In this document: positions 3,001-53,061 of the stretch, piece by piece
How the letters are laid out: every line of letters starts with the position of its first letter
How positions within the stretch are numbered: the first letter of the stretch is position 1
Assembly (NCBI GenBank): GCA_017962085.1
Contig: JAGCWA010000059.1
Location: 87,625 to 151,624 of the forward strand
Length of the DNA stretch: 64,000 nucleotides
Origin: Paludibacteraceae bacterium
GTDB taxonomy: Bacteria > Bacteroidota > Bacteroidia > Bacteroidales > Paludibacteraceae
Direction: 5' to 3'
Notes under the pieces: generated by a model
What the model was told of the DNA's origin: nothing
What the model saw: only the letters and a program-made list of their open reading frames with translations
Database searches by the model: none
Program-made: the position numbers and the translations under genes

Positions 3001-6000
3001 TCAAAGAGCTTTTATCAACCAACCTTTAAGATGACAGGGAAAGTGGCCGCCAGCGGTAGTGTGATGAGTCTAATCTGTGGAACAGGACTTTCTACGGAAA
3101 TTTTGGGGAATTCTTGTTTCGTGAATTTATTTAAGGATTGCACCAGCCTGACGCAAGCCCCTGAGTTGCCAGCCACGATATTGACAGAATACTGTTATGA
3201 TGGTATGTTCTCCGGTTGCACCAGCTTGACGCAAGCGCCTGAATTGCCGGCCACGACATTGGATTATGTTTGTTATGCGAATATGTTCGAGGGTTGCACC
3301 GGTCTGACGCAAGCTCCAAAATTGCCAGCCACAACGTTATTGGAAGGTTGCTATGCGAATATGTTCTCAGGTTGTACAAGCCTATCGGAAATCAATGTCT
3401 CATTTGAAGATTGGGATTATGGTATGGGGACTGGTCGTTGGGTCACCAACGTAGCTCCTACCGGCACCTTCATCTGTCCGAAAGCACTGGCTCTTGAGTA
3501 TGGAGAGAATAGAATCCCTGAAGGTTGGACGGTGAAATATATCGATGATACGGTTGCGGCTGAGCCCAACTATTTGACCTTCACGGCCGAGGAGGATGGC
3601 TCTACGTTCGGAATCGTGAACAACGGTGACAACAACCCAGACGTGCAGTATTCATTGGATGGTGGGGAAACTTGGACCGCACTGGCTGCAGGCGATACCA
3701 TCACGTTGGCCCATAAGGGTGACAAGGCTTTGTTGAGGGGAAATAATCCGGAAGGGTTCTCAAAGGATATAAAAATATGCTCGTCTTTTACGATGACGGG
3801 CAAGATAGCCGCCAGCGGTAGCGTGATGAGCCTGATCGACGGAACAGGACTTTCTACGGAGATTCCTAATGAGTACTGTTTCTGTAGATTGTTCAGAGCT
3901 TGCACCAGTCTCACCCGAGCCCCTGAATTACCTGCTACGAAATTGGCTAGAGGTTGTTATGAATCTATGTTCTCAGGTTGCACCAGTCTGACGCAAGCCC
4001 CTGAATTGCCTGCTACAACGTTGGCAAGTTGTTGTTATGAATTCATGTTCTCAGGTTGCACAAGTCTTACGCAAGCCCCTGCATTGCCAGCCACGACGTT
4101 GGCGGAAAGTTGTTATGATGGAATGTTCTCAGGTTGCACCAGCCTGTCGCAAGCTCCTGAACTGCCAGCGACGACATTGGCACCAACCTGTTATTGCGAA
4201 ATGTTCTCCGGATGTACGAGTTTGACGCAAGCCCCTGAATTACCTGCTACGACATTGGTTGAAGGTTGTTACTACGGTATGTTCAAAGGTTGCACCAGTC
4301 TAACTGAAGCCCCTGAATTACCTGCCACGACATTGGCTGGTTATTGTTATTCCAGTATGTTCAAAGGTTGCACCAGTCTAACTGAAGCCCCTGAATTACC
4401 TGCCACGACATTGGCTGATTATTGTTATTCCAGTATGTTCTACGGTTGTACAAACCTGTCTCAAATCGATGTTGCCTTTGAGGAGTGGCCTATCAATGAA
4501 GGAACTTATAATTATGTCGCAAACGTCGCCCCAACCGGCACCTTCATCTGCCCGAAAACGTTGGCTCTCGAATATGGAATAAGCAGGATACCGGAGGGTT
4601 GGACGGTGAAATATATAGAGGACATGCCTAACTACCTCACCTTCACGGCAGAGGAGGATGGCTCTACGTTCAGAATCGTGAACAACGGTGACAACAACCC
4701 AGACGTGCAGTATTCCTTGGATGGTGGAGAAACCTGGACCGCCTTAGCTGCAGGAGATACCATCACGTTGGCCCATAAGGGTGACAAGGCTTTGTTGAGG
4801 GGAAATAATCCGGAAGGGTTCTCAAAGGATGGGAATCAATATTCAACATTTAAAATGACAGGGAAAGTGGCTGCCAGCGGTAGTGTGATGAGCTTAATCG
4901 ATGGAACGGGTCTTTCTACGGAAATTCCTGGGAATTACTGTTTCTATAGTTTGTTCTCGGGGTGTACAGGTCTGACGCAGACGCCTGAATTACCAGCTAT
5001 GACATTGGCTAATTATTGTTATGGTTATATGTTCTCCGGTTGCACCAGTCTGACGCAAGCCCCCAAATTGCCGGCTACGACATTGGCTGTGGGTTGTTAT
5101 TCCTTCATGTTCTCCGGTTGCACCAGTCTGACGCAAGCCCCCGAACTGCCAGCTACTACGTTGGCTGAAGATTGTTATTCTTTTATGTTCTCAGGCTGCA
5201 CCGGCCTGACACAAGCCCCAAAATTGCCAGCTACAACGTTGGCTGATGCTTGTTATTACGAGATGTTCTCAGGTTGCACCAGTCTGACGCAAGCCCCCGA
5301 ATTGCCAGCGACGAATTTAGCTGCTTCTTGTTATTGGAGAATGTTCTCAGGTTGCACCAGTCTGACGCAAGCCCCCGAACTGCCAGCTACTACGTTGGCT
5401 GAAGATTGTTATTCTTTTATGTTCTCAGGCTGCACCGGCCTGGCCCAGGCCCCTGAATTGCCTGCTACTACATTGGCTTATGGTTGTTATAATGGTATAT
5501 TCGTAGGTTGCGAAAGCCTATCCCAGATTCGTGTCTCATTTGATGAATGGTCTTACGCCTTCACTGGTGACTGGGCTGTACGTGTAGCCCCTACCGGCAC
5601 CTTCATCTGCCCGAAAGACCTGCCTCTCGAGTATGGAGATAGCAGAATACCGGAAGGTTGGACGGTGAAATATATCGAAGATACGGTTGCGGTGGAGGCC
5701 AACTACCTCACCTTCACGGCAGAGGAGGATGGCTCTACGTTCGGAATCGTGAACAAAGATAACAATCCCGACATCCAGTATTCATTGGATGGTGGGGAAA
5801 CCTGGACCGCACTGGCTGCAGGCGATACCATCACGTTGGCCCATAAGGGAGACAAGGCTTTGTTGAAGGGAAATAATCCCGGAGGTTTCTCAAAGTATTG
5901 GGAGCAATATTCAACCTTTAAGATGACCGGGAAAGTGGCCGCCAGTGGTAGTGTGATGAGTCTAATCGATGGAGTAGGACTTTCTACGGAGATTCCTAAT

Positions 6001-44503: not shown

Positions 44504-45886
44504 TTATTCGTGCGGCTCGCCTAGTATTTTCCTCGCCACATCGAAAGCCTGTTTGATCCTATCCCCTATGCCTATACCGTCCCGCAGGTTTCCCGCAATC
44601 GTCAGGGTGGGGTACTGCTCCTCCAGTTGGGCGATCGCCTGCAAGCGGATGTCCGACGACGCCTCATATTGCGGGATGGCCCGCTCATGGCGGAAGATCC
44701 GCACCTTGTCCGCCCGTTTCTCCTTCGGGTATTGAAGCATTTCGCTGAGGGATTGATTCACCCATTGGGTCAGCTCCTCATCGCTCTTCTGCAAGTAATC
44801 GGGATGGCGGGAGCCTCCGATGAAGTAGGAGAAGGTCGCACCGCCTTGTGGCGCGCGCCCTTGGAAGCAGGCGGAAGGGAATAGTATGCCTAACAGATTC
44901 TTTTTCTCGCAGGAAGGGACTAATCCTCCGAAGGCCTTCCATTCGTTGCCTTGGCAATCCTCTATTCCGACGCCCACCTGAATGACCGGCGCGTAGTAGA
45001 GGTTGCTGATGTTGTGCATCTGCGTCTCGCTGACGAAGGGCAAAAGCTGCGGAAGCGCATAGGCGCCACAGGTGGTCACCACATGGTCGGCGTGCAATTG
45101 GAGGCTCTCTCCTCCTTTTTTGTATTGGATATTCCACCCTCCCTCGTTGTCAGGTGTTATGGATATATTCATGGCGGAAGTGGTGATGTGCTCGCTTCCG
45201 ATAGCCTCCGCGATCGCCTCGACAAGGTTGGAGAAGCCACCCTTGGAGGAGAACACCTTGCGGCTGACCCGTTTCTGTTGCTCCGTCTTAGGCATTTTAG
45301 CTTTGGCGATACTGCCCCTGATGAAGGAGCCATATTGTTGCTCCAAGGCATAGAGGCGGGGCAATGCCAGACGTACGGGGAGCTTGTATGGGTCACCCGC
45401 ATAGACACCGGAGAGAAACGGATCAACGGCGTAGTCTACATAGGATTTGCCCAGCCTACGTTCAGCCAAGGAACCCACCGACTCGTTGGGGTCTGTCCCC
45501 TTCGCCCGCCATGGCTCGCCTAAGATCCTGAACTTATCCTTCCAGGTGAACAATGGTGTGCGCAAGGCGCTGACCAGACCGGAAGGCAATGCGTGGAAGC
45601 GATCCTTCTTCCATATCAGGCGTCTCTTGCTTGACTCCAGCGCAGTCTCCATCTGGCACCGCTCCGATAGCTGGTCGAAGAGCTCCACCACCTCATAGTG
45701 CTTCACGACACCCGTGTTCGGACCGCTTTCGAACGTGAAGCCCGCATCGCTCCATGTCTTGATCTGTCCGCCTATTCTATCCATGCATTCCAGTACCATC
45801 ACGTCCTTGCCTTTCCTCGCGAGTTGGAAAGCGCACGTCAGCCCGGTTATGCCTGCACCAATGATTACGATATCATGATTCGTCAT
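44504..45886 (-). CDS. hemG: Protoporphyrinogen oxidase (HemY-type, FAD)
   Basis: A 460-residue flavoprotein with the FAD-binding motif IIGAGITGLTCAFQLARKG and EC-MDRIGGQIKTW (residues 8-47), and the C-terminal FAD-contact GNLRDGIGIGDRI near residue 440. The family uses oxygen (or another acceptor) to convert protoporphyrinogen IX to protoporphyrin IX. Family naming is hemG in Bacteroidota databases, although the protein is of the hemY/PPOX type. Last gene of the hem operon; it begins 3 bp after the hemN stop. An oxygen-dependent type next to oxygen-independent HemN is notable for presumably anaerobic cells. Confidence 0.93.
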   Translation of the reverse strand: MTNHDIVIIGAGITGLTCAFQLARKGKDVMVLECMDRIGGQIKTWSDAGFTFESGPNTGVVKHYEVVELFDQLSERCQMETALESSKRRLIWKKDRFHALPSGLVSALRTPLFTWKDKFRILGEPWRAKGTDPNESVGSLAERRLGKSYVDYAVDPFLSGVYAGDPYKLPVRLALPRLYALEQQYGSFIRGSIAKAKMPKTEQQKRVSRKVFSSKGGFSNLVEAIAEAIGSEHITTSAMNISITPDNEGGWNIQYKKGGESLQLHADHVVTTCGAYALPQLLPFVSETQMHNISNLYYAPVIQVGVGIEDCQGNEWKAFGGLVPSCEKKNLLGILFPSACFQGRAPQGGATFSYFIGGSRHPDYLQKSDEELTQWVNQSLSEMLQYPKEKRADKVRIFRHERAIPQYEASSDIRLQAIAQLEEQYPTLTIAGNLRDGIGIGDRIKQAFDVARKILGEPHE

Positions 45887-45889
45887 ATG

Positions 45890-47257
45890 CTATATGGGTT
45901 TTGAAAATTGTTTCGTCGTAGCCTGCATGAGGGGATCGAACGCCGCCGCCACGTTCCGCACGAACGGGTGACCCGCCTCTGTCATGGAGAGTCCCTTCTC
46001 TTCCTTCCGAAGGATACCGTCCGCCGCCATCTCGTCAAGCACCGATTCGTCGTATCGGATGGCTCTTTTTATCTCCGGGACGGGGATGCCTAAGGTCCCG
46101 GACAACTCTTCCCAGACGATTCTATAGTTGCACATCAACCGTTCGATCACCTCCCGGACGATCCGCTCGTCCGCCGTCAGGTGATAGCCTTTCCGCACGG
46201 GCAGTTCTCCCCGCTTCACGGCGCTGATGTATTCGCTGATGTCCTTGGTGTTTTGGGCGTAGCTGCCGTCCAATTGGCTGATGCCCGTCACCCCTAAGGC
46301 GTAGACCTGCCCCGTTGTCCGCAGGGTGCAATAGCCCTGAAAATTACGGTGTAGCAGTCCCTCCCTGAAAGCCACGTGGAGCTCGTCCGAAGGCAGGACG
46401 AAATGGTCCAGTCCGATGCTTTCGTAGCCCGCCTCGCGAAGCCTTTCGGCGGCTTGCTCATACATGCGTTTCTTCACTTCCCCGCTTGGCAGGCCATGCT
46501 TCTCCAGAATGAGCTGGCGCTTGAAGACCCAAGGAACATGTCCGTAGCCAAAGGTGACCAGCCTATCAGGGCGTAGCGCAATAGCTTGCTCTATGCTTTC
46601 CACGAAAGATTCTGGGGTCTGATAGGGCAGGCCGTAGAGAAAGTCCATGTTGACAGAGGCGTTCGCCGCACGAAGGATATCCATGATCTCCCGCAAGGGT
46701 ATCTGGGCAAGGGTTCGTCCGACACACTGCAGAACCTTCACGTCAAAGTCCTGTATGCCAATGCTATATCGGTTAAAACAACCGCTTGTCAGCGCCTCCC
46801 AATCCGTGCGGGAAAGGTAGCCCGGATGACATTCGATGGAGATCTCCTTCCCTTCGATGCAAGGGAAGAGGGAGAGGATATGGTCGTTCAGTTCATGGAG
46901 GACCGAGACTGGCAGGGAGGTAGGGGTGCCTCCGCCGTAGTGTATTTGGCTTACCGGCCTGTCCCTATCCAGCAGGGAGGCTATCCGATCGATCTCCAGA
47001 TGCAGGGCTTCGATGTATTGCTCCACAGTGCCCTGGTCCGGCATGATGTAGGAGTTGCACCCGCAGTAGTGGCAGAGCCTTCTGCAGAAAGGGATGTGCA
47101 GGTAGAAGGATAGGTTGCGCCTACCCACACGGTTAGACTCCTCCACGGAGGCGATATATTCCTTCTCCTCCATCGCACGGAAATAATTGGCGGGCGGGTA
47201 GCTCGTATACCTCGGCACGGATACGTTATATTTTTCCAACAAATCCATCTGAGTCAT
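45890..47257 (-). CDS. hemN: Oxygen-independent coproporphyrinogen III dehydrogenase (radical SAM)
   Basis: A 455-residue radical SAM enzyme. The [4Fe-4S] cluster motif CxxxCxxCxC is FCRRLCHYCGC (Cys58, 62, 65, 67), preceded by SFYLHIPF. GGGTPTSLP (SAM binding) and GIQDFDVKVLQCVGR follow. The C-terminal HemN domain is present (FQGYCTLRTTGQVYALGVTGISQLDGSYAQNTKDI), which separates true HemN from HemW. It decarboxylates two propionates of coproporphyrinogen III to give protoporphyrinogen IX. The gene sits 13 bp after the hemL stop and 3 bp before hemG. Confidence 0.95.
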   Translation of the reverse strand: MTQMDLLEKYNVSVPRYTSYPPANYFRAMEEKEYIASVEESNRVGRRNLSFYLHIPFCRRLCHYCGCNSYIMPDQGTVEQYIEALHLEIDRIASLLDRDRPVSQIHYGGGTPTSLPVSVLHELNDHILSLFPCIEGKEISIECHPGYLSRTDWEALTSGCFNRYSIGIQDFDVKVLQCVGRTLAQIPLREIMDILRAANASVNMDFLYGLPYQTPESFVESIEQAIALRPDRLVTFGYGHVPWVFKRQLILEKHGLPSGEVKKRMYEQAAERLREAGYESIGLDHFVLPSDELHVAFREGLLHRNFQGYCTLRTTGQVYALGVTGISQLDGSYAQNTKDISEYISAVKRGELPVRKGYHLTADERIVREVIERLMCNYRIVWEELSGTLGIPVPEIKRAIRYDESVLDEMAADGILRKEEKGLSMTEAGHPFVRNVAAAFDPLMQATTKQFSKPI

Positions 47258-47270
47258 TGTCTATGGGAAA

Positions 47271-48542
47271 TCAGTCGTTGAAGTCGCGCACGAGTTCGAC
47301 GAATCGGTCCAACTCCTCTTTCGTATGTTTGATGGAGATGAAATTGCTTTCGAACTGGGAAGGGGAGACGTATACGCCATGGCGCAGCATGTAGCGGAAG
47401 AACGCCGCGAAACGTTGCTGGTCCGTCCGATTGACGTCCGAGAAGTTCCGCACCTCGCCTTGGGTGAAGAACAATGTGAACATGGGTCCGACACGATTCA
47501 GCACCATGTTTTTCACCTTGGCAACCTCCCGCAACTCTTTGTCGAACGCGTCGACCCTGCCATTCAACTCTTCGTAAAAACCTTTCCGCATCAGCTGTGT
47601 GAGCGTCGCGATGCCTGCGCTCATGGCGACAGGATTACCACTGAGGGTACCCGCCTGGTAGACGGGGCCATTCGGTGCGAGCAGATCCATGATCTCCGCA
47701 CGTCCACCAAAGACCGCGGCGGGGAATCCACCCCCGACGATCTTCCCTAGGGTTGTCAAGTCCGGTTCAATGCCGAACCACTTCTGCGCCCCGCCGGAGG
47801 AGAGGCGGAAGCCCGTAATGACCTCGTCGAATATTAGCAGAGATTGGTATGCCGAGGTGATCTCCCTCAGGAAAGGGAGGAAGTTATTGTCAGGAAGCAC
47901 CACACCCATATTGGCGGCCACAGGTTCTAATATGACGGCGGCAATCTCTTGCCCATATTCCTCGAATATCTTTTTCACAGCCTCCGTATCGTTGTAAGGA
48001 GCCACTAGTGTCTGCGACACGAATTCACGGGGCACCCCGGCGGAGGAGGCGTTCCCTAGCCGAGCGACGCCGGAGCCTGCGCTGACGAGCAGATGGTCCG
48101 CATGCCCGTGATAGTTCCCCTCGAACTTGACGATGTATTTCCGGTTGGTGTATCCCCTCGCCAGACGGATCGCGCTCATCGTGGCTTCCGTGCCCGAATT
48201 GACGAAGCGCATCCGTTGCATCGAAGGGAAACATTTCTGCACCAGCTTGGCCAACTCCGTCTCCGGTAGGGAGGGGATACCGTAGCTGGAACCCCGCTCG
48301 ACGGCCTCGTGCACGGCTTGGTTGACCGAAGGATGCGCATGACCCAACAGGAAGACACCCCATGACAGGCAATAGTCCGTATAGGCATTGCCGTCGATAT
48401 CGTATATCTTATTATCCACCGCATGGTCGATGAACAGGGGCGTTTCACCCACCGCCTTCAACGCTCTGACAGGGCTGTTCACCCCTCCCGCGATATATTG
48501 GACGGCCTCCTCAAAGGCCTTTTTCGATCTTTCTCTTTCCAT
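47271..48542 (-). CDS. hemL: Glutamate-1-semialdehyde 2,1-aminomutase
   Basis: A 423-residue PLP enzyme of class III aminotransferases. IAGGVNSPVRALKAVG at the N-terminus, ANSGTEA-type FVNSGTEATMSAIRLARG at 114-130, IFDEVITGFR (PLP-ring Asp) at 238-246 and the PLP lysine Lys267 in LTTLGKIVGGGFPAA are all visible. It turns glutamate-1-semialdehyde into 5-aminolaevulinate. Its presence with hemA shows that the C5 route is used. The gene lies 6 bp after hemA. Confidence 0.97.
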   Translation of the reverse strand: MERERSKKAFEEAVQYIAGGVNSPVRALKAVGETPLFIDHAVDNKIYDIDGNAYTDYCLSWGVFLLGHAHPSVNQAVHEAVERGSSYGIPSLPETELAKLVQKCFPSMQRMRFVNSGTEATMSAIRLARGYTNRKYIVKFEGNYHGHADHLLVSAGSGVARLGNASSAGVPREFVSQTLVAPYNDTEAVKKIFEEYGQEIAAVILEPVAANMGVVLPDNNFLPFLREITSAYQSLLIFDEVITGFRLSSGGAQKWFGIEPDLTTLGKIVGGGFPAAVFGGRAEIMDLLAPNGPVYQAGTLSGNPVAMSAGIATLTQLMRKGFYEELNGRVDAFDKELREVAKVKNMVLNRVGPMFTLFFTQGEVRNFSDVNRTDQQRFAAFFRYMLRHGVYVSPSQFESNFISIKHTKEELDRFVELVRDFND

Positions 48543-49475: not shown

Positions 49476-50441
49476 TCATTGTTTGAAAAAATCTTTCGCG
49501 TAATAGGATATGATATAATCCGCCCCGGCACGTTTCATGGCGACCAGGCTTTCGAAGAATATCTTCTTCTCGTCGAAATATCCCTGCTTGGCGCCATTCT
49601 TCAGCATGGAGTATTCGCCCGACACCTGATAGGTGACCATCGGGTAGTCTGGGTACATCTGGTGCGCACGGCAGACGATGTCCAGGTATGCGAGGGCGGG
49701 CTTGACCATGATCCAGTCGGCTCCCTCCGCGATGTCCGCCGCAATCTCCTCCAAGCCCTGATCCTTCGTGCGGAAATCCATCTGGTAGGTTTTCCTGTCG
49801 CCGAAGGAAGGGGCGCTGTCCGCCGCATCCCGGAAGGGCCCATAATATGACGACGCATATTTGGCGGAGTATGCCAGTACCTTTGTCCGTGTCAATCCCC
49901 CCTTGTCCAATCGTTGGCGGATAGCCTCCACCTGTCCGTCCATCATGGCGGAAGGCGCCACGAAATCGGCTCCCGCCAAGGCATGCTGATAGGCCATCTC
50001 AGCGAGCAGTGGTAGCGTGCTGTCATTGTCGACGTCGCAGTCGCAAAGGAGTCCGCAATGCCCGTGCGAGGTATATTCGCATAGACAGACGTCCGTGAAG
50101 ACGATCACCTGCGGGAAGTGCTCCTTGATCGCCCGAACCGTCTTGCTGATGATATTGTCCGGCTGATATGCCGCGGAGCCTCGCTCGTCCTTCTCTTCCT
50201 GGGGGATGACGCCGAACAAGAGCACCTTGTTGATCCCGAAGGATAGCAGCTCCTCGATGTCGATGAGCAATTGGTCGATGGAGAAGCGGAAGACACCCTC
50301 CATGGTGGAGATCTCCTCTTTCACACCGTTCCCCTCCATCACGAAATAGGGGTAAATAAATGTCTCCGGACTAATCGGAGGGACATCTGCGTATTGGTCC
50401 CGAATGGCCTGAGAAATCCTCAGTGTTCTGAATCGTTTCAT
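49476..50441 (-). CDS. hemB: Porphobilinogen synthase (ALA dehydratase)
   Basis: A 321-residue enzyme joining two 5-aminolaevulinates to porphobilinogen. Schiff-base lysines are Lys194 (LAYSAKYASSYYGPF) and Lys247 (WIMVKPALAYLD). The zinc-site cysteines are visible in DVCLCEYTSHGHCG (Cys119, 121, 129), so it is the zinc-dependent type. The extra Glu/Arg metal site GEYSMLKN is also present. It begins 27 bp upstream of hemA's start region and 10 bp after the fusion gene's stop. Confidence 0.97.
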   Translation of the reverse strand: MKRFRTLRISQAIRDQYADVPPISPETFIYPYFVMEGNGVKEEISTMEGVFRFSIDQLLIDIEELLSFGINKVLLFGVIPQEEKDERGSAAYQPDNIISKTVRAIKEHFPQVIVFTDVCLCEYTSHGHCGLLCDCDVDNDSTLPLLAEMAYQHALAGADFVAPSAMMDGQVEAIRQRLDKGGLTRTKVLAYSAKYASSYYGPFRDAADSAPSFGDRKTYQMDFRTKDQGLEEIAADIAEGADWIMVKPALAYLDIVCRAHQMYPDYPMVTYQVSGEYSMLKNGAKQGYFDEKKIFFESLVAMKRAGADYIISYYAKDFFKQ

Positions 50442-50451
50442 GTTAATCAGT

Positions 50452-51984
50452 TTATTGTATTGAAGCTAATATCTCCTTCGCGGTCGTCTCGCCTATGCTT
50501 GTCAGCGGCACATCGTTGGGAAGCCCACCGTAACGTTCCATAAAGGCGCGCACGCCTGACGGGGAGGAGAAGAGTATTTCGTTGTATACCGACAGATCCT
50601 TCACCACCTCCGACTCCGGGTCGGTCTCCGTCTTGTAAATAGGCAAATCGGTCACCTCGTTCCCTAACCTTCTCAGCTCGAGGGGAAGGGCGGCGATGCC
50701 GATGGCGGAGCGAGGCAAAAGGATTCGTTTCCCGGAGAGACCGTTTCGCTCGAAATAGGCGACGATGCCCTTGGCTGAAGCGCTCTCCGACTCGTAAACG
50801 GGGGTTATCCCAAGGTCGTTTAAGGACCGCGTGGTGGCCTGCCCGACGCTGATCACCTTGGCTTCCTTCAACAGGGAGAGATCGTCCGCGCTCAGTTGTT
50901 CCGTGAAGTATCTCACACCGTTGCGGCTGGTGAAAAGGATATAGTCGAAGGCCTTCCCCCCTTGAAGAGTGAAGGATTCGCCGATCGGCAGGCGTTCGGT
51001 TCGGATGAGCGGTGTGTGCGTGACGGTTCCCCGTCCTTCCGCCCACTGCGTCGTGGAGCCAGTGACCAACACACTCCTTGCCTGAGTCTTCGGACTGACC
51101 CGCTCTCCGACCAGCATTAGAATAGGGGATGAGGAAAGAATCCTTGTATGTTGTAGTTCGTTTAGATGAAAGAAAAAGCCCTTTTCTTTTTCGCCTCCTA
51201 AATTGCAGATCAGTAATACGGGCGTTTGCATGTCAATCCCCATCCCCATTAAACGACTGATACGGTCTGGTATTTGTTCCCCACGCAGGTAATAGGCTTG
51301 GGTCTGGTGGTCGCCTGAGCGGTGTAGCTTATCGGGGGAGAATATGTGTTGGATCGTCTCGTCTCCAGTTCTCCCTACGATCGCGATGTGGCCCTGCAAG
51401 GGGTGCGTCTCGAAGGGGAGAGGTTCCGCTATCCTATCGCTTAGGCCTAGGCGGTGCAGGGCGCAGGAGGCGACGATCAGACCTTCGAAGTCCCCCCTGT
51501 CCAATTGGGCGATCCGTTCTCCGATTGTGCCGCGCACATCCACGACACGCAGGTCTTCCCGCAACCTCAGCAACTCCTTTTTACGCATGACGGAGCTGGT
51601 GGCTATCCTTGCGCCCGAGGGTAGTTGGGCCAAGGTCAGATGGTCCCTGCTCACCAATGAATCACTCTTGTCGAAAGCATCTGTCAGGGCATATATCTCC
51701 AACCCTTTCGGAAGAGGGAAGGGCAAGTCTTTCGCAGAATGGATGGCGATATCCGCCTTTCCCTCCAGCACCGCCGCGTCCAATTCCCTGGTGAAGAAAT
51801 CCGAGGGGATGCCTCCCGTCAGCGATTGTTCCTTGTGTCTGTCTCCGTAGGATTCGCAGGTGACCAGCTCATATTCCAGGCCATCCATCAGCGAGAACAC
51901 CTCCTCCACCTGTAGCAGGGAGAGTTGGGACGAACGCGCCACCACCCGTAGTTTCCTATTGCTCATCTCCTTTGAACGATTCAT
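50452..51984 (-). CDS. hemC/hemD: Fusion: truncated porphobilinogen deaminase - methyltransferase-like segment - uroporphyrinogen-III synthase
   Basis: A 510-residue fusion. Residues 11-208 align to domains 1 and 2 of porphobilinogen deaminase: VARSSQLSLLQ, the catalytic Asp86 in IHSAKDLP, ATSSVMRKK, and Arg151, 157 and 178 corresponding to E. coli Arg149, 155 and 176. Residues 226-296 look like the C-terminal half of a uroporphyrinogen-III methyltransferase (DMQTPVLLICNL ... SSSPILMLVGERV). Residues 302-510 are the uroporphyrinogen-III synthase domain (SVLVTGST, FDYILFTSRNGVRYF, EILFSSPSGVRAF, TSIGETTA). Domain 3 of the deaminase, which holds the dipyrromethane-binding Cys (E. coli Cys242), is missing; only Cys43, 174 and 260 exist. 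E. coli Arg131 corresponds to Met133. The gene overlaps hemE by 4 bp (ATGA). Confidence 0.8.
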   Translation of the reverse strand: MNRSKEMSNRKLRVVARSSQLSLLQVEEVFSLMDGLEYELVTCESYGDRHKEQSLTGGIPSDFFTRELDAAVLEGKADIAIHSAKDLPFPLPKGLEIYALTDAFDKSDSLVSRDHLTLAQLPSGARIATSSVMRKKELLRLREDLRVVDVRGTIGERIAQLDRGDFEGLIVASCALHRLGLSDRIAEPLPFETHPLQGHIAIVGRTGDETIQHIFSPDKLHRSGDHQTQAYYLRGEQIPDRISRLMGMGIDMQTPVLLICNLGGEKEKGFFFHLNELQHTRILSSSPILMLVGERVSPKTQARSVLVTGSTTQWAEGRGTVTHTPLIRTERLPIGESFTLQGGKAFDYILFTSRNGVRYFTEQLSADDLSLLKEAKVISVGQATTRSLNDLGITPVYESESASAKGIVAYFERNGLSGKRILLPRSAIGIAALPLELRRLGNEVTDLPIYKTETDPESEVVKDLSVYNEILFSSPSGVRAFMERYGGLPNDVPLTSIGETTAKEILASIQ

Positions 51985-53006
51985 TTCCAGTTGTTTTCAT
52001 CTTTTATCCATTCCGTCAGGAACCGAAGGTTGTCGAAAGGCGTGTTCGCCAATACACCGTGTCCCAGGTTGAGTATCCACCTACCGCCATGTTCTTTGAA
52101 GAATGGCACGTAAATGGATTCCATCGCGCCGACAATCCGTTCTGGGGTTGTCAGCAGCAAGTATGGGTCTATATTCCCCTGTAATCCGACCTCAGGGTGT
52201 ACCAGTCTCCGGGCCGTAGTGAGAGGCGTCTGCCAATCCACGCTCACGTAGTCGCACACGTCGGGCGTCATGAGGGAGAGCCCCGCACCTATGCCTTTGG
52301 GGAAATAGATGAAGGGGATGTTGCGTTTTCTGACGGCCGTGGCGAATCTCTTCACCGCAGGCAGGAACAGCTCCTCGTATAGTGTTTGCGGAATCACCCC
52401 CGCATGGGTGTCGAACAGTTGGAAAGCGTCGATGCCATGATCGATCTGCCTCAATGCATGCTCTATGCTGAATTCGGTCAGGAGGTCTATGCAATAGCGG
52501 GTCTCTTGGGGTCTCTCGTAAAAGTATCTCCTCGCATCCGGGAACTCTTGCCTTCCGCTCATTCCCTGTAGCATATAGCACAAGGTGGTCAGCGGGGCGC
52601 CGCAGAAGCCTATTGTGGGCACCTGCGACCGTTTTTTCACGATGTCCAAGGCATCGTACACGTGAGAAAGCTTGTTTGGGTCGGGGCGGAGGATTGTGCG
52701 GGGATCCATCTTTTCGCAGAGAGGCCTTTTGAAACGAGGCCCATGGTCGGTCCATTCGAGTTCCATCCCCAAGGCGGTTGGTACGGATAGGATGTCGCTG
52801 AAGACGATGGCGGCATCCACACCTAGATCGGAGACCGGCAACAGCGTCACAGCCGCCGCCAACTCCGGGTTGTGCATCAACTCCTCGAACGAGTATTTTT
52901 CCCTTAGTTTTTTGTAATTAGGCAGCGCTCTGCCGGCTTGGCGCATATACCACACAGGAGGCCGGTTGCCTCTCTTCCCTTTCCGCTCATCGTCACCTAT
53001 GAACAT
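51981..53006 (-). CDS. hemE: Uroporphyrinogen decarboxylase
   Basis: A 341-residue protein if started at the ATG at 53006 (MFIGDDERKGKRG). I prefer this over a GTG 48 bp earlier because the GTG lies inside the promoter -7 element. Family marks are RPPVWYMRQAGRALPNY at the N-terminus, IVFSDILSVPTALG with the catalytic Asp, GFCGAPLTTLCYMLQG, and FDTHAGVI. It decarboxylates four acetates of uroporphyrinogen III to coproporphyrinogen III. First gene of the operon hemE-hemCD-hemB-hemA-hemL-hemN-hemG. Confidence 0.95.
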   Translation of the reverse strand: MFIGDDERKGKRGNRPPVWYMRQAGRALPNYKKLREKYSFEELMHNPELAAAVTLLPVSDLGVDAAIVFSDILSVPTALGMELEWTDHGPRFKRPLCEKMDPRTILRPDPNKLSHVYDALDIVKKRSQVPTIGFCGAPLTTLCYMLQGMSGRQEFPDARRYFYERPQETRYCIDLLTEFSIEHALRQIDHGIDAFQLFDTHAGVIPQTLYEELFLPAVKRFATAVRKRNIPFIYFPKGIGAGLSLMTPDVCDYVSVDWQTPLTTARRLVHPEVGLQGNIDPYLLLTTPERIVGAMESIYVPFFKEHGGRWILNLGHGVLANTPFDNLRFLTEWIKDENNWK

Positions 53007-53053
53007 GCTTGGATCTCTTTGTTTTCGGATAATAAATAAAAAGTCTTCAGCCA

Positions 53054-53061
53054 CAAAATTA
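53054..53061 (-). promoter_or_regulatory. Predicted -7 element of the hem operon promoter
   Basis: TAATTTTG on the minus strand matches TAnnTTTG and would place the start of transcription near 53050, about 44 nt before hemE. No TTTG is present 19-21 bp upstream, so transcription probably needs an activator bound at the two sites just upstream. Confidence 0.6.

Follow-up and report, generated by a model that had tools for sequence, protein, structure and literature searches.

The window, by which we mean the whole 64,000-nucleotide stretch of Paludibacteraceae bacterium DNA analyzed here, encodes a deaminase (HemC) that ends after its two catalytic domains and is fused, through a decayed piece of the methyltransferase SUMT, to uroporphyrinogen III synthase (HemD). 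On balance, we favor the view that this protein is a working hydroxymethylbilane synthase in which the anchor for the growing chain has moved to Cys174. We read it as a working synthase because it is the only HemC found in the genome, its gene lies among the early heme genes and is under purifying selection, and it belongs to a lineage of HemC proteins without domain 3.

Table 1. Coordinates of the fusion gene, its parts and the neighboring heme genes in the window.
Feature	Position	Strand	Basis or remark
Flavoprotein	44504..45886	-	PF01593
hemN-type radical SAM enzyme	45890..47257	-	PF04055 + PF06969
Class III aminotransferase	47271..48542	-	PF00202
hemA, short glutamyl-tRNA reductase, 299 aa	48549..49448	-	PF05201 + PF01488
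hemB, porphobilinogen synthase, downstream of fusion	49476..50441	-	PF00490
Fusion gene, hemC (domains 1-2)-SUMT remnant-hemD	50452..51984	-	510 aa
HemD domain, residues 319-505	50470..51030	-	PF02602
Remnant, C-terminal third of SUMT, residues 222-302	51079..51321	-	NF004790, collinearity of L055
HemC domains 1-2, residues 1-212	51349..51984	-	PF01379 at 12-212
Cys174 codon (E. coli HemC position 172), candidate covalent anchor	51463..51465	-	Cys in 85/96 domain-3-less HemCs
Met133 codon, aligned with E. coli Arg131, which binds cofactor ring C1	51586..51588	-	alignment; role from passages of PMC3945110 and PMC7907807
hemE, uroporphyrinogen decarboxylase, upstream of fusion	51981..53054	-	PF01208

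The fusion frame has no internal stop, keeps the boundaries first assigned to it, and begins with an ATG that shares four bases with the stop of hemE. Downstream of the fusion and on the same strand, as is hemE upstream, are hemB, hemA, the class III aminotransferase gene, which we take to be hemL, the gene for the hemN-type enzyme and the flavoprotein gene, which presumably encodes protoporphyrinogen oxidase. The HemA protein is short: GlutR_N matches best over a stretch that spans only profile positions 90-151, a dimer domain is absent from the Pfam listing, and the HemA parts of three other proteins (L098, L112 and L120) resemble it. The ferrochelatase profile PF00762 has no match in the window's genome (G000), and the cluster nevertheless extends to the protoporphyrinogen oxidase-like gene. 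A missing ferrochelatase is reported for Bacteroides and Prevotella in passages of PMC6460266.

In the fusion protein, we found that PF01379 matches residues 12-212 with 171.9 bits (Pfam cut-off 22.1), placing HemC domains 1 and 2 in the protein; the TIGR00212 equivalog cut-off is passed as well (169.2 bits against 164), with a match that stops at profile position 213 of 293. The HEM4 profile (PF02602) matches residues 319-505 with 117 bits over positions 12-210 of 231, a nearly full-length HemD. PF03900, which represents domain 3, has no match in the fusion protein up to E = 1 in Pfam, and the GGC cofactor loop (Cys242 in E. coli) was found in the frame neither by motif nor by an in-house domain 3 profile. 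The absence of domain 3 and its cofactor cysteine, as claimed in the initial annotation, thus held, and the profile search uncovered no hidden copy of the domain. Residues 222-302 match positions 161-243 of 250 of the SUMT model NF004790, a match that is weak alone (E = 5.9e-4); the complete SUMT domain (PF00590) was not found in the fusion protein, and the N-terminal half of SUMT is absent. The SUMT reading is strengthened because the matching part of a same-genus fusion with 57% identity (L055) is collinear with the end of the full SUMT domains in L048-L051, in an alignment where the window itself is represented by residues 1-212 only. These matches bear out the earlier description of a SUMT-like C-terminal piece joined to HemD. 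The same description had put this piece in the place of domain 3, and here it fails: relatives have a full SUMT, or none in the frame, and still lack domain 3, which removes the SUMT segment as a substitute for domain 3.

Passages of the literature on three-domain enzymes give the roles of the residues concerned. In known enzymes, a cysteine of domain 3 carries the dipyrromethane cofactor. PMC3949521 describes this cofactor cysteine as invariant, and Cys261 is the sole site at which the chain was found attached in the human enzyme (PMC7907807). E. coli R131L and R132L proteins show no cofactor binding (PMC3945110). Human R149, equated with E. coli R131 in PMC3945110, forms a salt bridge with cofactor ring C1 (PMC7907807, Table 2), and human A189 and R195 bind ring C2 (PMC7907807), which correspond to E. 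coli positions 170 and 176 by an offset of 19 that we set here. When the E. coli enzyme was simulated, A172 came into contact with the chain at P4M-P6M, once four rings had been reached, and it is absent from the contacts given for the terminal ring in the passages of PMC3945110.

Aligned to E. coli HemC, the window's protein keeps R11, Q19, S81, K83, D84, T127, S128, S129, R132, R149, R155, R176 and Q198 (E. coli numbering) and has Met133 at the Arg131 place, with catalytic Asp84 and the other listed cleft Arg, Lys and Ser residues intact. The initial annotation had named Asp84, Arg132, Arg149, Arg155 and Arg176 as kept and Met as standing for Arg131, and we found the same residues; its gap-free match was not reproduced, as the profile built on the window and its kin (profile A2) shows in E. 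coli one 4-residue insertion and, close to the end, 1 + 2 further residues. Cys174 falls at E. coli position 172, and a HMMER alignment to PDB sequences agrees with this placement.

To count these residues across HemC proteins, we reduced 181 sources (the window and 180 loci) by 14 partial or repeated loci and 9 identical rows to 158 rows, plus E. coli. Using the in-house domain 3 profile with a threshold of 12 bits that we set ourselves, 62 rows have domain 3 (at least 17 bits) and 96 lack it (below 6 bits). Cys172 is present in 85 of the 96 domain-3-less rows as compared to one of the 62 rows with domain 3. Arg131 is found in all 62 rows with domain 3, in none of the 85 Cys172 rows, and in 8 of the 11 domain-3-less rows without Cys172. 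Position 151 is Asn in 62/62 rows with domain 3 and in 6/85 Cys172 rows, and position 173 is Gly in 57/62 rows with domain 3 and Ala in 84/85 Cys172 rows. E. coli positions 11, 19, 81, 83, 84, 132, 150, 155, 176 and 198 are invariant in all 158 rows; Arg149 differs in a single row (L087) and is kept in 95 of the 96 domain-3-less rows. Position 151 is a second Cys in 25 of the 85 Cys172 rows, for example in L013, L098, L107 and L109.

Cysteines 43, 174 and 260 had all been put forward as alternative anchors. Only Cys174 is supported as a candidate: its position is Cys in 85/85 Cys172 rows, as compared to 3/85 for the Cys43 position, and Cys260 was found by motif search in one of five genus relatives examined (L012). 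Cys43 and Cys260 were set aside as not conserved.

Loss of domain 3 does not demand Cys172, since 11 of the 96 domain-3-less HemCs lack it, and these 11 rows break any strict rule that no domain 3 means Cys172. They carry cysteines at several other places: at position 77 in L136 (Brevinematales by title), its neighbors L141 and L142, and L143, with another at 200 in L136; at position 107 in L144-L146; directly behind the domain 2 match in L147-L149; and at positions 121, 136 and 146 in L175. Position 77 is also Cys in 2 of the 62 rows with domain 3. L144, L145 and L146, from the Spirochaetota draw, are HemA-HemC fusions with a short tail, no domain 3 match and Arg131 kept. One three-domain HemC, L161, has the cofactor loop and Arg131 and also Cys172.

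For a quick tree with IQ-TREE, we used 96 rows and removed columns 131 and 172. The tree contains 50 domain-3-less rows (39 of the 85 with Cys172 and all 11 without it) and 46 rows with domain 3, including E. coli; it is unrooted, 36 of its 93 inner branches are weak, and Chlamydiota lie outside the sample. In this unrooted tree the 50 domain-3-less rows make up one side of a branch with an SH-aLRT value of 96, and by this grouping the window's HemC belongs to one lineage of domain-3-less HemCs. L175 sits on a very long branch. On this tree, a single change accounts for domain 3 and two changes account for Cys172 among the 50 rows; thus, the residue counts are not independent and stand for few events.

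In the mechanism that we favor, porphobilinogen would still be deaminated at Asp86, and from its position (E. coli 172) in the cleft, on the side of domain 2, Cys174 would replace Cys242 as the chain anchor. A Cys at 172 could hold the chain from behind. The anchor would carry either a dipyrromethane that stays in place or the first ring of the product, and the product would then be closed by the fused HemD. The loss of Arg131 suggests that the former use of the C1 site has been given up. Several observations weigh against a Cys174 anchor: 11 of the 96 domain-3-less HemCs lack Cys172 and have cysteines at several places, and several anchors are less simple than none; a three-domain enzyme (L161) has Cys172 too; and the counts reflect few events.

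A tentative version, to which we give a distinctly lower probability, has no dipyrromethane cofactor at all: the first porphobilinogen would be placed directly on Cys172, four units would be built there and the tetrapyrrole released, and sister lineages without Cys172 would be anchored at another cysteine or at none. Direct priming of this kind fits the loss of Arg131 because Arg131 holds the first cofactor ring. Equally doubtful to us is a two-domain synthase with a non-covalent primer, a dipyrrole or hydroxymethylbilane held by Arg132, Arg149, Arg155 and Arg176 alone, in which Cys172 would be structural or a habit of the lineage. The 11 rows without Cys172 speak for such a primer, particularly as 8 of them keep Arg131, as if the ring site were used without a fixed Cys. 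However, Cys172 is kept in 85 rows, with two changes only on the tree of 50 domain-3-less rows, and a needless active-site Cys would be expected to vary, as Cys43 does.

Any two-domain synthase, whether anchored at Cys174 or not, has to be set against data on human HMBS. Passages of PMC10773753 describe a human variant consisting of the first 217 residues, without domain 3 and C261, as very unstable with almost all activity gone, and in the saturation map of human HMBS Cys261 and Arg149 are intolerant to change (passages of PMC10577081). The variant and the map show what three-domain enzymes need; the natural two-domain forms must offset the loss of domain 3 by other changes. The need of three-domain enzymes for domain 3, and the near inactivity of the human variant without it (passages of PMC10773753), are also what could be said for a domain 3 with its cofactor cysteine supplied in trans by another protein, which we consider very improbable. 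PF03900 is over the cut-off in 0/17 domain-3-less genomes as compared to 3/3 control genomes with three-domain HemC, although the profile could miss a far-diverged domain, and the neighboring genes that we scanned are known heme genes. The window's genome (3.37 Mb, 96.96% complete) has one PF01379 gene and nothing over the cut-off for PF03900 (best E 0.61); 16 of the 17 domain-3-less genomes have a single PF01379 match and G310 has two, and the three controls have both profiles. A second deaminase, or a hemC lying elsewhere, had been proposed at the outset; a second hemC and a separate domain 3 were both searched for in this genome and not found.

To measure selection on the parts of the fusion, we calculated dN/dS by the Nei-Gojobori method for three pairs that were measurable for all parts; four other pairs were wholly or partly saturated at synonymous sites. 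For the window and L058, dN/dS is 0.09 for HemC, 0.40 for the SUMT remnant (residues 213-305) and 0.21 for HemD, with dS from 0.9 to 1.1. The corresponding values are 0.08, 0.22 and 0.19 for L062 and L063, and 0.13, 0.55 and 0.44 for L058 and L061, a pair with few changes. In all three measurable pairs, dN/dS is lower for HemC than for the SUMT remnant or HemD, and by these ratios the fusion gene is under purifying selection. That the HemC part is a decaying remnant, with the fusion acting only as HemD and tetrapyrroles coming from elsewhere, is accordingly hard to credit: 243 of 295 genomes of the order have no PF01379 match, which would suit it, but the low HemC ratios, nine cleft positions invariant in 96/96 domain-3-less rows with Arg149 in 95/96, and hemB, hemA and hemE beside the fusion all argue against it.

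We surveyed the genus and found a match in 10 of 16 genomes, including the window's own, and none in the other six. G001, G003, G005, G006, G009 and G013 have the same 514-codon frame with 73% identity and a nearly full-length match, and G014 has a match at 57% identity. In G007 and G015, HemC and HemD are separate, and HemC is a protein of 214 residues that ends after domain 2. G009 (4% contamination) has a second partial match, L015, on contig C134, covering residues 168-508 at 69% identity at the contig start. The question raised initially of whether relatives share the architecture is thus answered by further genomes of the genus with the same fusion. A misassembly or frameshift that joined two genes, also raised there, has practically no chance of being right: it is refuted by these genomes, and domain-3-less HemC is found in records of cultured strains as well (e.g. 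Xylanibacter brevis ATCC 19188 and Bacteroides propionicifaciens DSM 19291). The fusion is neither an assembly error nor a spare copy.

The 96 domain-3-less rows differ in what HemC is fused to. We assigned architectures by motif and length, and Pfam confirmed the domains in the proteins that were scanned. By these criteria, 56 rows are HemC-SUMT with a long tail fitting HemD, and five more are HemC-SUMT with a shorter tail. HemA-HemC accounts for 14 rows, HemA-HemC with a short tail for three and HemA-HemC-SUMT with a long tail for one. HemC with a tail of middle length is found in ten rows, nine of the window's type and L087, and HemC is alone in its frame in seven (L128 begins at a contig start). 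HemC ends 7-12 residues past the profile match in the seven HemC-alone and 14 HemA-HemC rows, so nothing fused downstream is needed. The 14 HemA-HemC fusions (L079, L097, L098, L106, L111, L112, L114, L117, L119, L121, L127, L129, L130 and L133; 509-522 aa) come from Prevotella-like and other Bacteroidales records, and their HemC ends 7 residues past the match; Pfam was run on L098 and L112. L120 (3032-5974) is a 981-aa frame with HemA, HemC domains 1-2, SUMT and HemD, four pathway functions in one chain. Because domain-3-less relatives have a full SUMT, HemC alone or HemA-HemC, domain 3 was most likely lost before the N-terminal part of SUMT, the latter in the window's genus.

To see how far domain-3-less HemC extends, we searched wider sets of genomes. 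In a draw of 295 genomes of the order, PF01379 is found in 52 and PF03900 in 45; the seven with PF01379 and without PF03900 are G000, G045, G052, G106 and G277, which we read as domain-3-less, and G258 and G177, which match PF01379 only in part. In a draw of 395 genomes of the phylum, 318 match profile A2, and the two-domain type looks rare outside the order because scores drop from 361.4 bits for the window to 166.2 bits for the next best. A scan of named genomes gave 581 confirmed loci, and the best 80, a set chosen by likeness to the window, have Cys at position 172 in 79 cases and no cofactor loop in place of domain 3 by motif, with a few frames cut by contig ends. Within this best 80, the named records nearest to the window are bins of Paludibacteraceae and Bacteroidales, mostly from rumen, and cultured strains by title are Parabacteroides sp. 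Marseille-P3160, Prevotella sp. MA2016, Xylanibacter brevis ATCC 19188, Bacteroides propionicifaciens DSM 19291 and Prevotella sp. DNF00663. Records titled Elusimicrobia, Spirochaetes and others also occur among the 80, some perhaps misbinned. L065, in a record titled Treponema sp., is a Bacteroidales-like fusion with 63% identity to the window and may likewise be misbinned, and L074 (Parabacteroides sp. Marseille-P3160) has a second partial HemC-like frame (2146-2667) upstream of its full fusion (3944-5956). Among plasmid records, 80 have a HemC match, all below 60% identity, and the 15 matches listed are at 35-40%. HemC fusions of 520-630 codons from the Spirochaetota draw (L168-L174 and L176-L180), which we take to be Leptospira-like, were rejected as further cases because the in-house domain 3 profile matches them above its threshold, with weak scores (17-30 bits) in six. 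Heme-independent growth of the cultured strains was looked for in open-licence papers and not found documented.

A short HemC is already present in annotation, since the NCBIfam model NF002202 (PRK01066.1), a hydroxymethylbilane synthase of 241 positions that we assume was built on chlamydial HemC, is too short for domain 3, and most of the two-domain proteins scanned scored better on it. Of 13 domain-3-less proteins scanned, eight score higher on NF002202 than on TIGR00212 and five lower by 2-12 bits. All are below the NF002202 cut-off of 251, the window with 174.2 and the other 12 with 135-198 bits. In contrast, the three-domain L056 scores 121.6 on NF002202 and 298.1 on TIGR00212.

Compared to the HemC of E. 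coli and human (TIGR00212), the window's protein is alike in domains 1-2 and in its catalytic residues except Arg131, and differs in lacking domain 3, Cys242 and Arg131 and in having Cys at 172. Euryarchaeota fusions of HemC with CobA-HemD, described in passages of PMC11237513, carry these three functions in a single chain as well; of CobA, the window keeps only a remnant, and those passages are silent on domain 3 and the cofactor cysteine. SUMT-HemD (CobA-HemD) fusions, in the same passages, have SUMT and HemD in the order of the window's remnant and HemD, but in the window the N-terminal part of SUMT is gone. Human HMBS p.Gln217Thrfs*33 also ends behind domain 2 without the cofactor cysteine; however, it is an unstable, nearly inactive disease variant (passages of PMC10773753), whereas the window has a conserved natural form with changes at 131, 151, 172 and 173. 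Among the part of the open-licence hits that we viewed, no paper describes a deaminase that naturally lacks domain 3 or whose cysteine has moved.

Taken together, a bacterial lineage with cultured strains among its members appears to form tetrapyrroles without domain 3. Most of the domain-3-less enzymes carry a new conserved active-site cysteine that may take over the holding of the growing chain. Natural enzymes of about 214 residues provide material for testing the need for the cofactor and how the chain of four is counted.
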